Shown here: positions 1,190 through 58,187 of the stretch, piece after piece
Numbering within the stretch: the stretch's first letter is position 1
Layout of the letters: each line of letters starts with the position of its first letter
Assembly (NCBI GenBank): GCA_039881145.1
Contig: JAYKKI010000087.1
Location: 7,078,001-7,142,000, forward strand
DNA length: 64,000 nt
Source: Druceiella hillmani
Taxonomy: Eukaryota; Arthropoda; Insecta; Lepidoptera; Hepialidae
Reading direction: 5' to 3'
Program-made: the position numbers and the translations under genes
The notes under the pieces: generated by a model
The model's database searches: none
What the model was told of the DNA's origin: nothing
Seen by the model: the letters and a program-made list of their open reading frames with translations, nothing else

Positions 1190-1340
1190 ATATTCGGCGT
1201 TAATTTTGTAGAAAAACATTATTCACAATTAAATGAAACTACGTGATGAAGTATTATTTCTACTTTCTTTAAGTTCTTTACCACGACATAGGTTTCGTTT
1301 TATTATCAACATCTTCAGGTGGGCTATTAGCAAAGATCTT
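1190..1340 (-). mobile_element. Solo Penelope-like terminal repeat (pLTR copy A)
   Basis: The reverse complement of this interval matches 8315-8467, the 5' terminal unit of the Penelope-like element at 8.3-10.7 kb, over about 150 bases with scattered mismatches and an indel. Reading minus-strand, it starts near AAGATCTTTGCTAATAGCCC, passes through a hammerhead-like core (1281-1322), then the AACTTAAAGAAAGTAGAAA block and the CACGTAGTTTC block, and ends at the sequence that precedes the reverse transcriptase in the larger copy. No RT sequence follows, so this is a terminal unit on its own. Such solo ends are known for Penelope-like elements. Confidence 0.8.
1281..1322 (-). ncRNA. Candidate hammerhead ribozyme, copy A
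   Basis: On the minus strand stem I CCAC/GTGG (1319-1322 with 1281-1284) encloses CUGAAGA (1312-1318), GAAA (1293-1296) and U-C (1286-1285), placing the cleavage-site C directly before the 3' stem I strand. This is the order of a type I hammerhead with a very short helix III. Helix II has drifted (weak pairing), helix III keeps about two pairs, and one extra U sits between the CUGAAGA box and helix II. Hammerheads in Penelope-like terminal repeats are established; activity of this copy is not implied. Confidence 0.5.
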
Positions 1341-6004: not shown

Positions 6005-6248
6005 AAAATACTAAATAGCAAACATCTTGTTATATGATATTTTCGGGATGATTACAATCATATTAGCTAACAACATATTTAAATACATTACTATTCACTG
6101 ACTATTCAATTATTATTCATTATTTCCACATTTTGTTTCCAGACAAGGACCGACATTTTCTTGGAATTATAAATAAAATGAGTTATTTGATCTAACTATG
6201 AACAATACACAAAATTTTCCGTTCTGTATATTAAATAGTTAAAATATT

Positions 6249-6680
6249 ACACACACACACACGCACACACACACACACGCACACACATGCATGCACGTGC
6301 ACACACGCACACACGCCCACAACCACGCACGCACGCACGCACGGTTGCACGCACGCACACATGCCCGCACGCACGCACGTACAAACGAAAACACGCACGC
6401 ACGCTCGCACGCACGCTCGCATGCCATACGCACGCACGCATGCACACATGCACACATGCACGCTCGCACGCAGTCACGCACGCACGCACGCTTCCCCGCA
6501 CGCACGCACGCACACACCTTCGCCCATACGCAGGCACGCACGATCGCACGCCTCACTCACGCACGCACGCACGCACGCATGCTCGCACGCACGCAGGCAT
6601 GCACGCACACACACCCACACATACACACACACGCATGCACACACACGCACACACAAACACACAGACACAAGCACACGTGC
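6249..6680. repeat. GC-rich CA / CACG / ACGC simple repeat
   Basis: About 430 bases of interrupted ACAC, ACGC and CATG words, strikingly GC-rich for this window. Because the units are multiples of two or four bases with no T-A-A type words, several frames on both strands stay open (for example Thr-His-Ala-Arg repeats); these are artefacts. The first 70 bases duplicate the tract at 5950-6003. Confidence 0.95.
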
Positions 6681-7766
6681 AAAGAAAGTGGAAATAAAGA
6701 AGGTGGATATCTAAGAGGTACATTATTTTCATTGTTATGTCATAAAAAGGATTTTGAATTAAAATACAACCACGACACATCAAATATCATTAGTTAAATT
6801 TTTATTCTCTATATGTTAAACTAACTAGGAAGGTTAGATTTGGAAGGTTACGTCAGTGTAATTTAGGTCTTGCCAGGCTATGTTAGGTTAGAATAGATTT
6901 TGTTGAGTTATATCCGATTAGAGACTATGTTTTTCTTATAGAAAGAAAAGCGAAAATTTTGCAGCGCATTCTCTCTAAAAATATACTTTCCAAAATCAAA
7001 TTCAAATGAAAGCAAAGGATATTTTTCTAAAAACGTTTTTAGTATCTAGTGTATACTTTTTAAATAATACATATAAGTGGAAGATCAAAGCATAGCGCAG
7101 AATAGTCGATACGAAAAGAAATTTCAAAAGTCGGCGCGCGTTTTGTGTATAAAATCGTGAGTTATGCTGACAAGAAATTTCATCGAATATTAAAATAGTG
7201 AAAAATATGAATATTTACCCTGTTATAAAAATAGGAAGTAAACGATTCTGAATTCTATTCGTTTCAATTAAAGTTTTTACTTTCATAACTAAGATCAACT
7301 GGATCAAAAATAATGAGTAGGCAAGGTAAATAATTATTCTTTTAAACATTTCTGGCTCATTATCTTGTTTCAGTTTTTAAAATTATAAATTTTTTCCGCA
7401 TAAAACATATAAACCAAAAAATAACTTATGTTTGATGCATTTGGTTCAACATTAATTATGATTACGAAATTATCTTTACTTCAAGTTATTAGTTTTTAAT
7501 CTGCTTCTTCTTTCATCAATTAATGATAATGCTTTCATCTGCCAATGTACAAAATGTTATGCCTTTTATCATTACTTTTATAAATTACTGCTACAATGAA
7601 AACATATATTTGAAGTTACATTTGGAAATTTTTTGGAAATTCAAAGTTATTGGGTATTCAATTCTCCCATTTTGATAGTATAGATTGTTCAACGTAAAAA
7701 GTAATAATGTTATTACCGTACCATAAAAATCTTGACAGCTAGCACGTTGAACAGGTTTTATAACTG
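6681..7766. other. Intergenic stretch, no gene seen
   Basis: Contains several GGTTAG/TTAGG words at 6825-6890 reminiscent of the insect telomere motif but scattered and not tandem. No coding signal. Confidence 0.4.
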
Positions 7767-7886
<120 letters not shown>

Positions 7887-8314
7887 TTTTTATATCTTTG
7901 AAAAAGCACATTTTGTATTTATTATTTATAATGATTATGTTCAGCAATATGTAAAAAATAAGAAAATATATTTTGAATAAAAAGCATTTGCTGCAAAAGC
8001 TTCTATGACCATATCATTATCAGACACTTCTGATAATAATATGTTACTCATACTAGAGGATTTATTGAGAGAAGTAAAACGAGCCACACTCGATAGGTTC
8101 ACTGTCAGCTGCTGAAAAATACCCCCATAACTACGTCCCTTCTCTTTAAAAAAATCATCTGGGTTATTTTAAATGACAAAAGAACAAATTATGACAAGTT
8201 TAATGATGGATTTACTGTTAGCGATTGAGACCACCTCCACCATCATACTAGTTTTATTGCACCAACATTCAAACCACCCCCAAAGGTACAAATATTGCAA
8301 GTAGCAGAGATCTT
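7887..8314. other. Flank of the Penelope-like element, no gene seen
   Basis: Moderately GC-richer than its surroundings (8080-8300) with short CCACC/CACCCCC runs. It may be an upstream extension of the terminal repeat, but copy A at 1.2 kb stops matching at about 8315, so I place the visible boundary there. Confidence 0.3.
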
Positions 8315-8467
8315 TGCTAATAGCCCACCTGAAGATGTTGTAATACAATGAAACCTAGGTTGTGGTAAAGAACTTAAAGAAAGTACAAATAATACTACAT
8401 CACGTAGTTTCATTTAATTGTAAATAATGAATTTCTACAAAATTAACTCCAAATATACTCAATATCA
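8315..8467 (+). repeat. 5' Penelope terminal unit (copy B)
   Basis: Homologous to 1190-1340 (minus), 10476-10675 (plus) and 58070-58187 (minus). It contains the ribozyme-like core at 8325-8365, the AACTTAAAGAAAGTACAAA block and the CACGTAGTTTC block, and runs directly into RT sequence at about 8470. This places the 5' unit beside the middle of the ORF and marks an internal deletion or 5'-truncated reverse transcription. Confidence 0.85.
8325..8365 (+). ncRNA. Candidate hammerhead ribozyme, copy B
   Basis: Stem I is CCAC (8325-8328) with GTGG (8362-8365). Between them are CUGAAGA (8329-8335), a helix II TTGT/ACAA hairpin with AAU loop (8338-8348), GAAA (8350-8353), then CC-UA-GG (8354-8359) as a two- to three-pair helix III closed by A8353-U8360, and U8361 at the cleavage position. 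This fits the conserved hammerhead core CUGANGA...GAAA...UH, with one extra base between the box and helix II. The sister copies carry C at the cleavage position, the normal preference; U here is a tolerated but unusual H. Confidence 0.6.
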
Positions 8468-8472
8468 GTTTT

Positions 8473-9363
8473 ATGGTAAAATATTATAGTAATGTTACCA
8501 GAATCGCACAAATTTATATATATGGACAACCTAAAATGCATAAATCAAATATACCCATACGACCTGTTGTCTCATACACAAACGCACCCACAAAAAAATT
8601 AGCTTTTCACCTGAATAAGACCTTCAAAAATAAAACCGGGTTTGCGCCTAAATATACCATTAAAAACTCTGTTGATTTCTGTAATAAAATTAAAAATATA
8701 CATCTAACACCTAATTGTAAATTAGTATCATTCGACGTAGTAAACTTATTTTCTAATATACCACCAAAAGATTGCCTAAATATCATTTCATATATCCTAG
8801 AAGAGAAAAAGTTAAACCCCATTGAAGCATACGAAATTAGAGACCTTTTTAAATTATGCATAGACCAAAATTATTTCCTCTTCGATAAAAAATTTCAACA
8901 AGTCAATGGCCTTGCAATGGGCTCCCCTCTCAGTCCCCTTTTAGCCAAGTTATTTATGAACAATCTAGAAACCAGCCTCTTAAACAGTAAATTAGGAACC
9001 AATATATTACACTATTATAGATACGTCGATGACATCCTTATCTGCTGGAAACGTACACAGTGACAGTTAGACCAGTTTGTTAACTTTGTTAACTCCTTAC
9101 ACAATAATATCAAATTCACATTAGAAGTAGAATCCGATAATAAACTTAAATGTTTAGATATAACAATAGAACGCAAAAATAATGAACATATATTTAATAT
9201 ATTTAGAAAAGACACATTTACAGACTCCATAATTAATAGTCAATCTCAACATCCTTGGTCCCATAAGTTAGCAGCTTTCCATTCTATGATCCACAGAGCT
9301 TTAACCATCCCTCTAGAAAAACTTAATTTACATAAAGAAATAAAAACTATTAAACAAATCCAG
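8473..9363 (+). pseudogene. Penelope-like reverse transcriptase, N-terminally truncated
   Basis: The visible frame starts at ATG 8473, but this is probably not a real start: the homology begins inside the RT. Motifs in order: IYGQPKMHKS with IRPVVSY (RT motif 2 region), SFDVVNLFSNIP (motif A with the catalytic Asp), NGLAMGSPLSPLLAKLFMNN (motif B) and YRYVDDILICW (motif C, YVDD). The in-frame TGA at 9061 replaces what looks like an Arg codon; the frame then continues about 100 residues to TAA at 9364, including NKLKCLDITIERK and HPWSHKLAAFHSMIHRAL, both typical of the Penelope thumb region. Alignment continues in another frame after 9366 (YDPSIIIKLYHNKLR, SYIGIVSLKLEK), showing a frameshift at the TAA. 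The enzyme would prime cDNA synthesis at exposed DNA 3' ends; this copy cannot. Confidence 0.92.
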
Positions 9364-9365
9364 TA

Positions 9366-9599
9366 AATAATAATTATGACCCATCAATTATCATAAAACT
9401 GTACCATAATAAATTAAGAAAAATACTAATACAAGAAATATACCCAGTCGTACCAAATAATAATAATATTTACTATAAATCTATCTCATACATAGGTATA
9501 GTATCACTCAAATTAGAAAAAGTCTTAACTAATAATAAAAATATAAATAATATTACTTAATATTATTTATATTTTTAGTTAAATAGTACTTTAAATAAC
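9366..9599 (+). pseudogene. Penelope RT-endonuclease linker with palindromic insert
   Basis: From 9366 the frame reads NNYDPSIIIKLYHNK, then YIGIVSLKLEKVL, the conserved linker before the endonuclease, and is in the same frame as the GIY-YIG part. At 9536-9577 a near-perfect 20-bp inverted repeat with a two-base loop interrupts it and brings stops at 9558 and 9576. After it the frame resumes with LGKSLINNKEK. Confidence 0.8.
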
Positions 9600-9920
9600 T
9601 TGGGTAAAAGCCTTATTAATAATAAAGAAAAAATAGATAAACATAAAAAGAGTGGTATCTATAAACTTAAATGTAATGACTGTAATAGTATAAACATATG
9701 TCAAATAGGAAGTGATTTTAATACAAGATATAAAGAACACATTGCCAGCTGGCGAAATAATAAACCAGACACATCTCACTTTGCTAAACATCTCATTGAA
9801 AATAACCATCACCCCCATACTGATAATGCCCCCTATATATTACAAATAAATACAAAAGGTAATAAACTTAATATCCTAGAAACATTAGAAATAAACAGAC
9901 ATAAAAAAGATACCAAATGA
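9600..9920 (+). pseudogene. GIY-YIG endonuclease domain of Penelope-like element
   Basis: 106 residues to TGA at 9918-9920; the first codon is TTG and is simply the middle of the polyprotein, not a start. SGIYKLKCNDC carries the GIY triad element followed by a CxxC, the zinc-finger-like insertion typical of endonuclease-positive Penelope elements. FNTRYKEH is the next conserved block (the catalytic Arg helix), then SHFAKHLIENNH with conserved His, and a Glu at ILETLEI close to the expected metal-binding position. The YIG/YVG triplet is replaced by NIC (NICQIGSDF), so the second catalytic Tyr is missing. The domain would nick target DNA for insertion; this copy is expected to be inactive. Confidence 0.9.
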
Positions 9921-10475: not shown

Positions 10476-10480
10476 ATAGC

Positions 10481-10521
10481 CCACTTGAAGATGCTGCAAT
10501 ACAACGAAACCTGGGTCGTGG
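10481..10521 (+). ncRNA. Candidate hammerhead ribozyme, copy C
   Basis: Stem I CCAC (10481-10484) with GTGG (10518-10521); UUGAAGA (10485-10491) in place of CUGAAGA, so the invariant C3 is mutated; GAAA (10506-10509); helix III CC-UG-GG closed by A10509-U10516; cleavage position C10517. Helix II has one mismatch. The C3-to-U change should abolish or strongly weaken cleavage. Confidence 0.5.
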
Positions 10522-10546
10522 TAAAGAAATTAAAGAAAGTAGAAAA

Positions 10547-10620
10547 AATACTACTTCACGTAGTTTCATTCACTACGTGAAGTACTTCACGTAGTGAATG
10601 AAACTACGTGAAGTAGTATT
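10547..10620. repeat. 74-bp perfect palindrome
   Basis: Two 37-base arms with no spacer, centred between 10583 and 10584 (AGT|ACT). Each arm holds two ACGTGAAGTA-type words. Such a structure can extrude a cruciform or fold the transcript into a long hairpin. Confidence 0.95.
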
Positions 10621-10657
10621 GAAACTACGTGAAGTAATACTTACTTCACGTAGTTTC
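10621..10657. repeat. Second inverted repeat, 17-bp arms
   Basis: GAAACTACGTGAAGTAA (10621-10637), a TAC spacer, and its exact reverse complement (10641-10657). It uses the same CACGTAGTTTC motif as the adjoining 74-bp palindrome. Confidence 0.95.
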
Positions 10658-10675
10658 ATTTAATTGATAATATCT

Positions 10676-16082: not shown

Positions 16083-17602
16083 TCTATACTAATATTGCAA
16101 AGAGGAAAGATTTGATTTTTTGTTAGTTTGTAATGGATGAACTCAAAAAATGTCGATAGTTCTACACGAGGTTTAAAAAATCGCCTAAAAATATGTTTTC
16201 TTTGCGTGCTCTGCAAAAACTATTGCTATTACATAAATAAATGGGATACACATTAAACTTTTTCACTAATATGAACAAAAAAGTTTGCAAGACACTATAC
16301 GTAATTGTTATAATTATGTTACAATAAAAATGATCAAATTAGTCAACTAAAACACAGATGCGAACAAAACATTATTATATCCTTATCATGATATGAATCC
16401 TTATCCAAATCAGTTATTAAATCATTTGGGCTGTTTGAGTAGGAGTGAATTACTCTTTGAATTATTCGAATAAAAATTGTCACGAATATTGCAAGCCGCT
16501 GCATGTTAGGTAAGTAAACAGAAATGCTACTATCTAAACTAATATTATAAAGTGTATTAATTTAATATTCATGAAAATTGCGATAAGGTAACCCAAGGTT
16601 ATCAATCCTTATGTAACTTGATAGTTTCATTATCTAGGTTGATTATGTTCATGTAAATTCCCCTTAAATTTATCAAATCGATTTTTACACAAAAAATTTA
16701 CACGAAAAAGACTTTCGTCGGCTGTGTTGTAAAGCAATGATGTATAATGTGAAATAAACAATTTAATCACACAAAACGCAGTACATTGTCCACAGTAATT
16801 TTTAAATTCAATTAACTCCGCTGACCTGCCACCTCACGAATTATCATTAAAAATCGGGATGCTAATTATGCTTCTGAGAAATTTAAGCCCTCCTAACATG
16901 TGAAATGGGACGAGGCTATTTATAAAGGAATTGAAATATAACTTAATTGTAGCGAACATTATCACTAGCCCTGCAGCTGGTGAATTAGCTCATATTCCTA
17001 GGATACCGATGGTCCCTACTGATTTGCCAATTCCGGTTAATCGACTTCAATTTCCGCTGAAAACTTCTTTTGCTTTAACAACTAACAAGTGCCAAGGCCA
17101 AACTTTCAATTTAGTAGGGATTGACCTACGAAAAGAATGCTTTACTCATGGGCAACTGTATGTTGGCCTATCACGAGTCAGAGCTTCCGAACATCAATTT
17201 ATTTTGCTGCTACAAAATAAAACTACAACAAATATTGTTCAGAGGGAAGCTCTAAGACATCAAACTTTAGAAATAAATTTCTATGAAAATAATTCATTTT
17301 TAGCAAATAACCTTATATTAAAACAGCAACGGAACCGTCAATGATATGACTACTAAAAATTGTAATTGCTATATTATATTCATAGAAATTATCGTTTTGT
17401 TCTATTTGTACAAGCGTAATTCTTTTTTAGTTTCTATTTATTTTATGCCAAAGCGGATCTCGTTAGCATATAATATTATATGTGCTATACCTACTAATAT
17501 TACAAATGCAAAAGAAATTTGGCAGAGATAGATTACGATTTGATAGATACTTTTTATACTGATATTTGGGACTTACGCGGGTGAAACCGCAGGGTGCAGC
17601 TT
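16083..17602 (+). mobile_element. Degenerate Helitron with helicase remnant
   Basis: The 5' end follows an A and begins TCTATACTAATATTGCAAAG, then AGGAAAGATTTG and, 55 bases on, ACTCAAAAAATG, matching the 5' end of the better Helitron at 20098. The 5' noncoding parts of the two copies also align (GCAAAAACTATTGCTA versus GCGAAAACTATTGATA). The 3' end is a GCGGGTGAAACCGC hairpin followed by AGGGTGCAGCTT, a mutated version of the hairpin plus CTAG end. At about 1.5 kb it keeps only the C-terminal helicase and has lost the Rep domain. Confidence 0.7.
16775..17344 (+). pseudogene. Helitron Pif1-type helicase, C-terminal part
   Basis: One frame runs from 16775 to TGA at 17342-17344 with two in-frame stops (TAA near 16796, TGA near 16900 where a Cys codon is expected). 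Blocks in order: FLNSINSADLPPHELSLKIG, MLLRNLSPPNM, NGTRLFIKEL, HIPRIPMVPTDLPI, LQFPLKTSFALTTNKCQGQT (helicase motif V), GIDLRKECFTHGQLYVGLSR (motif VI with SR). This is the 3' part of a Rep/Hel protein that unwinds DNA during rolling-circle transposition. From Met at 16931 the remaining 137 codons are open, but the upstream stops and missing ATPase motifs make it a pseudogene. Confidence 0.9.
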
Positions 17603-54371: not shown

Positions 54372-54573
54372 ATTCATTGATGGAGAAAAACTTGACCTCG
54401 CTCAACGAAGCAGAAAACCAAAAACCTTTTACGTTTACGCACCTTCTACAAAACGAAAAAATATAAAGGTTTTGATGGATATCCATTCCAACTCTGAGTT
54501 GACATTGACGTGTACTTGTCCAATGAAGGGCATTTTACAGCAACCAATGTTATGAAGAAAGTGTCAACGTTAC

Positions 54574-55315
54574 TTGCTAAGTCAAGCACCGATCGAGAAA
54601 AGCCCAAAAGTTCAGAATAATGAAGAAGCTTTGTCATTGTATTTAGATTTAGGTCTTTCGCAGAGTAAATATAATTTACTCCGGTCTGCCGTCAATACTC
54701 TAAACCAGGGCACCTTCATGAGTATTCACAATTATTATCCATCAGGTGTATTTACAATTATTAGACTGAAATTCAATCCAAATTTCCGATTTCCAATCTT
54801 ATTGGAAAACACGGTTTCTAGAATTGTTGAATTTGAGGAAAATTCTTTACGTCTTCTCACGGCGATTCACAAATATGGATTTAATGGTAGGTCGGGGCAC
54901 AATCTGTCTTTAAAATAGTTTGCAGACTCATCTAACACGGATGAATGTTTACTCTCCAGGGATTTATTTCCTACTCAATCAGATACCGCAGATTAATTAA
55001 ATTCTCGTTTTCTACCGAAAAACCAAACGTACTTAAAGATGAATCTGCTAGGTTGGAACAATCTATTGCAAACTTAACTCTACTTTATCTGCGCATTGCT
55101 GAGATATAATTAAGCATTACTCATGATTTTTATCGGTACTAAAGATACTACATGCCGGTGACGTTAACAAAATGGTATTGACATAATATCTACATGAATA
55201 TTACCAATAGGGCAAACATCAGAGGGAGCTTTGGAAGCTCATCATAAAGAGGTTTGAATAAAATGCGAAAATCACACTCGAAACCCTCGCAGGTTAATCT
55301 AACCAACCCTAATCT
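54574..55315 (+). pseudogene. Transib (RAG1-related) transposase fossil
   Basis: The frame 54574-54918 holds EEALSLYLDLGLSQSKYNLL, SGVFTIIRLKF and LLENTVSRIVEFEENSL, then KYGFNGRSGHNLSLK. This matches the Transib core in which KWG-DGSSG carries the first catalytic Asp (D600 of RAG1); here the codon at 54883-54885 is AAT, so Asp is replaced by Asn. After a TAG, FADSSNTDECLLS follows in frame. Another frame at about 54972-55085 reads YSIRYRRLIKFSFSTEKPNV, LKDESARLEQSIANLTLL, corresponding to PSSTRYCRPIKF-F-KET-----E---I--QI-NL. Then MPVTLTK (55152) and LPIGQTSEGALEAHHKE (55201-55251), the conserved Glu block (SEEALEARNKE, equivalent to the SEGNESGNK block of RAG1). The middle third, with the second Asp, is deleted. 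Terminal inverted repeats were not identified. Confidence 0.82.
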
Positions 55316-57450: not shown

Positions 57451-58069
57451 ATATTTATTTCTATTTTAAAACAAACAGGAAATTATTTAGGAGAAATATA
57501 ATGCATGGTGTAGAGTGAGAATATGCACTAAACTGATACCTCTCCATATTATCATGGAATATAACAACATTTTTTAAAAAAATAGTGAGATAAGTCTATT
57601 TCTAGTTGCAAATAGTAATTTGCCTAAAAATACAACATATCCTAAATAAAATTTATGTTTGTTCTGCGAGCTTCGTCGAAAAAATATCAAAAATATAGGT
57701 TACCCAAAGAATCTATGAATGGCTTTATTGTTCTGCATTTATCCGAAAAGTGAGTGGAAAAAATTCTATTTTTTCTTTTGACTTTAGAAATTTGCCACCT
57801 CAAAAATATGTGCGTAAAATATTTGTGTATACTTTTATATAAAGTATATGTCGATTCCCAACCGTTTCCAAACAAAATCGCTGTCATATTTTGTTCCCGT
57901 TAAAATAATTGATTTTTATATAATCATGCTTCAAATATATATATCTGATATGCAGACTAGTATGTATGCAAAATATACACGTTTGCTTGTTATCTTTTGA
58001 TTTTGAATTAGCATAAATCTTTGAAAATTTGACTTTTACAAACTATATTAAATAATTTGTTTATTGAAT
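57451..58069. other. Intergenic stretch, no gene seen
   Basis: AT-rich; nothing recognised. Confidence 0.4.
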
Positions 58070-58187
58070 ATATTTGGCGTTAATTTTGTAGAAATTCATT
58101 ATTCACAATTAAATGAAACTACGTAGTATTATTTCTACTTTCTTTATGTTCTTTACCACGACCTAGGTTTCGTTGTATTACAACATC
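58070..58187 (-). mobile_element. Solo Penelope-like terminal repeat (copy D), truncated in the ribozyme
   Basis: The minus strand carries GATGTTGTAATACAACGAAA then CCTAGGTCGTGGTAAAGAAC, followed by the AAAGAAAGTAGAAATAATAC and ACGTAGTTTCATTTAATTGT blocks and ending at the same CTACAAAATTAACGCCAAAT boundary as copies A and B. Helix II, GAAA, helix III, cleavage-site C (58160) and GTGG of the hammerhead are intact, but the copy ends within the CUGAAGA box, so one strand of stem I and half the core are missing. Confidence 0.8.

Follow-up and report, generated by a model that had tools for sequence, protein, structure and literature searches.

Four related motifs in the 64-kb stretch of Druceiella hillmani DNA analysed here (the window) are very probably hammerhead ribozymes of a Penelope-like family, situated in its pseudo-LTR and tail; the additional U in their core would be the U of an AUG, and cutting would take place in dimers. 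We assign this joint reading a probability of about 0.88. The first-pass annotation had reported the four motifs, and re-examination found each of them in place and on the expected strand, at 1281-1322 (minus, copy A), 8325-8365 (plus, copy B), 10481-10521 (plus, copy C) and 58156-58187 (minus, copy D). Hammerheads in Penelope pseudo-LTRs, their cleavage as dimers and, in at least the Poseidon element of Anolis carolinensis (PAc), their overlap with the start codon are already known, and what is found here is another, mostly decayed, Penelope hammerhead element, adding one more member to the pattern of a hammerhead that lies across the junction of pseudo-LTR and ORF.

Copies of the motif and their host element

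Copy B is the best preserved and has the core letters, the helices and the descriptor match of a minimal type I hammerhead. Its helix I has 4 bp, its helix II has 5 bp (one of them G-U) closed by the loop AAU, and its helix III has 2 bp with a CUAG tetraloop; the predicted cut site reads U-U|GUGG, with U as H17 at position 8361. The complete succession CCAC / CUGAAGA / U / helix II / GAAA / short helix III / U-H17 / GUGG is present in B and A, so that the type I core (CUGANGA ... GAAA ... UH) is complete in two of the four copies, and the descriptor finds helices I, II and III in both. The type I order originally proposed for all four is thus complete in A and B, but C3 is mutated in copy C and copy D is truncated.

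The decay takes a different form from copy to copy, as the first-pass annotation had described. In copy A a 1-nt insertion weakens helix II (3 bp by the descriptor); copy C carries C3 changed to U (10485) and two C.A mismatches that break helix II; and copy D, whose H17 is C, ends within the core at G8 (58187) and has no helix I, while its 5-bp helix II is complete. The same annotation counted the U at 8361 in copy B as damage, which we did not accept as a strong claim: C, A and U are all permitted as H17 (the NUH rule), and therefore a U there need not be damage.

Minimal type I hammerheads in Penelope-like elements were reportedly described by Cervera and De la Pena in 2014 and by Lunse, Weinberg and Breaker in 2017. 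Passages of reviews on these ribozymes give a position in the pseudo-LTR, at least two copies per element, a very short helix III and an expectation of dimers, and the copies in the window share the position, the multiplicity, the very short helix III and the dimer expectation with them. They differ in that one copy has a mutated C3, one is truncated, and all four have an extra U directly after A9, which agrees with the unpaired U first noticed behind the CUGAAGA box. The hammerhead identity and the Penelope context agree with the literature on these elements and with folding, and the first-pass interpretation as a whole is partly supported.

Each motif belongs to a longer repeat. The block of copy B (8308-8464, plus) comprises the end of the pseudo-LTR and a tail common to A and D. 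Copy A lies in a short solo unit (1184-1339, minus) with 92% identity to the B block over 156 nt, and copy D in a 5'-truncated solo unit (58062-58187, minus) with 91% identity to B over 131 nt. The pseudo-LTR segment of copy C (10476-10570, plus) shows 89% identity to 8320-8414, a block of 95 nt. Metazoan non-LTR retrozymes likewise have a type I hammerhead within a short AT-rich repeat, and the helix III of 2 bp with a tetraloop found here resembles axolotl HHR_Amex2; however, retrozymes form tandem repeats of 150-450 bp (PMC7229834), whereas A and D are single short pieces whose ends resemble that of the Penelope tail.

Remnants of two protein domains lie between B and C. A Penelope-type reverse transcriptase (RT) fragment (8431-9063, plus; PF00078, E 9.3e-13) ends at an in-frame stop. 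In its frame YGQPK falls at residue 31, whereas the corresponding motif stands at residue 128 in P0006 and 151 in P0007, which indicates that its N-terminal part is missing. This fragment has 21 protein relatives at E 0.001 or better, the best of them 55% identical over 86% of the query and the best with an organism name from Nilaparvata lugens. A search of its profile against solved structures gave 17 sequences at E 0.001, including group II intron, Drt2 and telomerase reverse transcriptases. Protein scans with the RT alignment gave 16 pattern matches in viral contigs, none of them confirmed, and one bacterial contig with 25% identity among the genome contigs, which was left out of the comparison. 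The stop is followed in the same frame by an open stretch with no Pfam match (9064-9366, plus), placed by its position in the element, and then, in another frame, by a remnant of a GIY-YIG endonuclease (EN; 9579-9917, plus) with 49% identity over 105 aa to P0020. No Pfam family matches this piece itself at E 0.001; the precomputed domains of P0020 include PF01541, which we take to be the GIY-YIG domain.

The assignment to the Penelope type rests on the order RT then GIY-YIG, both on the plus strand, and it bears out the Penelope context initially suggested. On its gene order and repeats the B-C unit reads as a broken Penelope-like element. The description of the motifs as lying in terminal repeats stands insofar as B and C are direct pseudo-LTR copies, but it fits these two only loosely, the N-terminal part of the RT being missing; B need not be the original 5' repeat and may just as well represent the tail of a separate insertion next to a copy truncated at its 5' end. 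Judged by their sequences, the copies appear to be mostly past use, with the RT and EN broken, C without C3, D without part of the core and A with a weakened helix II. In the preferred reading the segment of pseudo-LTR and tail would have formed the 3' end of insertions truncated at their 5' side, and for this reason decayed ribozymes would come to be scattered, either solo (A, D) or flanking a broken RT/EN (B, C).

Inverted copies of the tail also occur. Two partial ones (1340-1374 and 1386-1422, together 1340-1422, plus) lie directly upstream of copy A and resemble the inverted ends described for Penelope elements; for a transcript containing both them and A, folding predicts a long hairpin that surrounds the hammerhead. 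No target-site duplication was identified. Within the tail of copy C lies a perfect palindrome with 37-nt arms and no spacer (74 bp; 10547-10620, plus), with further inverted copies up to 10661 (10547-10661, plus), and the sub-threshold Rfam matches to MIR2593 and mir-135 in this palindrome are most likely artefacts.

An AUG within the core

In all four copies A9 is followed by U and then G, giving an AUG whose A is at 1312 in copy A, 8335 in B, 10491 in C and 58186 in D. In copy B this AUG (8335-8337, plus) is followed by UUG UAA and is not translatable; the frame of B and D is interrupted by UAA at codon 3 and again by UAG at codon 8, and that of A is shifted by the 1-nt insertion. Only copy C, with its AUG at the same place (10491-10493, plus), has a frame free of stops across the 27 codons that were read (MLQYNETWVVVKKLKKVEKILLHVVSF). 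Cleavage is predicted 27 nt away from the A of the AUG. By analogy with the known element discussed below, the extra U is best explained as the middle base of the element's start codon, which is the simplest reading and a better one than a random deviation, and the AUG would then have been the start of the ORF in the ancestral element. Since the U belongs to the AUG, ribozyme core and ORF start would overlap.

The closest parallel is PAc. According to PMC11167929, its C3 and G8 precede the start codon and its ORF begins at stem II, the cut falls 26 bp downstream of the ORF start, and reverse transcription begins 111-118 bp into the ORF, with the ends of genomic insertions falling on these start sites. 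The likeness thus includes a core placed over the ORF start and a cut at 26 bp there against 27 nt from the A here. It extends to the insertion ends, near +111-118 in PAc and at +123-130 in the window: counted from the A of the AUG, the 3' ends are A +129, B +128 and D +123 in the matches with copy A, and two bases further in the match between B and D (B +130, D +125). PAc differs in that the AUG frame here is broken or shifted in three of the four copies. The same paper reports for PAc that no cleavage was seen without protein, that catalytic mutants of the hammerhead leave insertion in vitro unaffected and that no RNA-seq reads start or end at the cut. The overlap of hammerhead and start codon is described for PAc in PMC11167929, and the start-codon passage of PMC10085705 is unrelated.

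A single unpaired nucleotide between A9 and G10.1 is also found in the plus-strand hammerhead of the viroid CChMVd, where the extra A moderately lowers trans-cleavage and replacing it with U makes cleavage 3-4 fold faster (PMC3705267). For that reason the U in our copies need not hurt catalysis, with the difference that the extra base in the viroid is natively A and that the U was tested there as a substitution only.

The four copies allow a further reading, which we regard as unlikely, namely that coding start and ribozyme compete for the same bases and that A, B and D form a non-autonomous subfamily moved by an autonomous element. The ORF-bearing lineage represented by C (CUG CAA, then UGG) would, with the same small likelihood, have kept its frame and lost helix II and C3. 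B and D (UUG UAA) and A (the same with one inserted base) would conversely have completed helix II and destroyed the ORF; on this unlikely reading, such a subfamily would have been retained for its RNA structure and tail. The comparison of C with A, B and D, four copies in all, does no more than suggest a conflict between ORF and ribozyme. The AUG reading itself offers a simple reason for an extra U in the core; if it holds across the group, search descriptors could allow for the extra U, and a comparison of subfamilies with and without a coding frame could show whether coding conflicts with catalysis.

Chance resemblance and conservation

The motifs might instead be inherited sequence of the element's end that resembles a hammerhead by chance, their shared letters reflecting recent descent together with protein or DNA binding by the tail. 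We consider this improbable, despite several results in its favour. The first is the search with Rfam, which gave no hammerhead match at gathering thresholds in the whole window and none up to E 10 in either the whole window or 8250-8450; the 49 matches obtained up to E 10 are mostly to microRNA families, and many fall in simple repeats or in the palindrome of copy C (10547-10620). The covariance-model support for a type I hammerhead, whose absence the first-pass annotation had named as a refutation, was hence not obtained from Rfam, even at E 10. Our own covariance model, R1, recovers the four copies in its seed, with no other match below E 0.98; this gives no independent support.

The second is the lack of covariation. 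None of the 11 helix pairs, those of helix II included, is altered on both sides among the four copies; 37 of 40 cells are paired, with one further pair type, a G-U variant. Because almost nothing varies, the shuffle control cannot separate this pair count from chance. The third concerns conservation, for the catalytic segments had been described as the most conserved between copies. This does not hold: the catalytic columns are identical in A, B and C in 10 of 12 cases and the other columns of the 95-nt block in 72 of 83, and random draws of 12 columns did as well as the catalytic ones 15781 times out of 20000. The 41-nt motif is in fact less conserved than the rest of the block (33/41 against 49/54 identical columns). 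The argument that the first-pass annotation drew from conservation thus fails.

The last of these results comes from a descriptor composed after the motif had been seen, in which C3 may be U and 0-1 inserted base is allowed. It matches two sites in the 64-kb window, B and A, each with the inserted base, and fails on C and D; in windows simulated with a first-order Markov model it gave 9 hits in 300. The four copies are related and so are not four independent finds. Taken by themselves, the boxes CTGANGA and GAAA are found at 7 sites in the window, of which 5 are unrelated. Pattern searches returned no relatives in viral contigs and none in genome contigs, using exact patterns on viral and prokaryotic collections, and this silence says little because of the nature of these collections and because the exact requirement for CGAAAC misses even copy B.

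Against a chance resemblance, however, copy B unites all the core letters, the three helices and the cleavage triplet. A helix II of at least 4 bp was present in no hit from the 300 simulated windows, and the site is the position of start codon and insertion end at which hammerheads of Penelope-like elements have been described.

Predicted folds and further features of the window

The folding energies given here (in kcal/mol) leave out tertiary contacts. On these, the monomer hammerhead is the predicted minimum in none of the cores folded: copy A gives -0.3 against a minimum of -2.4, B -1.5 against -4.8, and C 3.8 against -3.8. A distal extension of helix I (UCUUU/AAAGA in B) was rejected, as it costs energy (-1.9 versus -2.5). 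In a dimer of copy B, helix III is predicted to lengthen from the 2 bp and tetraloop of the monomer to 8 bp, owing to the self-complementary ACCUAGGU; the predicted length is likewise 8 bp for BC and CC, 7 bp for AB and AC, and 6 bp for AA. The double hammerhead of B with B reaches -18.4, compared with -9.6 for two separate monomers and -21.0 for the dimer minimum. For each of the six pairings among A, B and C, the double hammerhead lies above the predicted dimer minimum.

The first-pass annotation held that the very short helix III fits a known tendency of Penelope-type hammerheads to need dimers. For copies like B such a need is plausible from the modelled gain in helix III and agrees with the reviews on PLE hammerheads, but in AA (-5.0 versus -4.8), AC (-7.0 versus -6.2) and CC (-8.0 versus -7.6) the double hammerhead is lower than the separate monomers by under 1 kcal/mol. 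Copy B is the sole copy that might have kept the ability to cleave, in dimeric form. Transcripts that run through tandem copies of a working element would contain several hammerheads, two of which would join by their self-complementary helix III and cleave 5' of GUGG, possibly with the assistance of the element's protein, as in PAc. We infer that the ribozyme of this family would cleave.

With its 5' flank (8308-8372), copy B is predicted to form another hairpin at -14.0, which lies some 11.5 kcal/mol below the hammerhead of the monomer (-2.5). This 65-nt hairpin has a z of -2.29, with 6 of 200 shuffles as stable; in it the 5' flank pairs with the cleavage region and the 3' side of helix I is concealed, and it is possibly an inhibitory fold. 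It is also a point in favour of the segment serving mainly as a stem-loop or palindrome at the 5' end of the element, acting in self-priming or protein binding, in which CCAC and GUGG would be inverted-repeat pairing and not part of a ribozyme, a proposal that likewise draws on the inverted tail copies before A, the perfect palindrome in C and the pLTR 5'-end palindromes described in the rotifer Penelope families Pen2_Av and Pen3a. This is very improbable, since the equivalent part of A shows nothing unusual (z -0.29), C adopts a different fold (z -0.39), the boxes CUGAAGA and GAAA are left unexplained, and such a stem-loop and a hammerhead can be alternative folds of one segment.

The window contains three further features. 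Long CA-rich simple repeats at 6235-6800 give rise, in three frames, to open frames rich in histidine and threonine that probably have no significance as coding sequence. An open frame of 120 codons at 54556-54918 (plus) has no database relative at E 0.001 and no Pfam match. A further segment at 16904-17344 (plus), with no Pfam match at E 0.001, corresponds to the helicase end of a Helitron, its best match among solved structures being Helraiser (7lcc, E 2e-22), which we take to be a Helitron.
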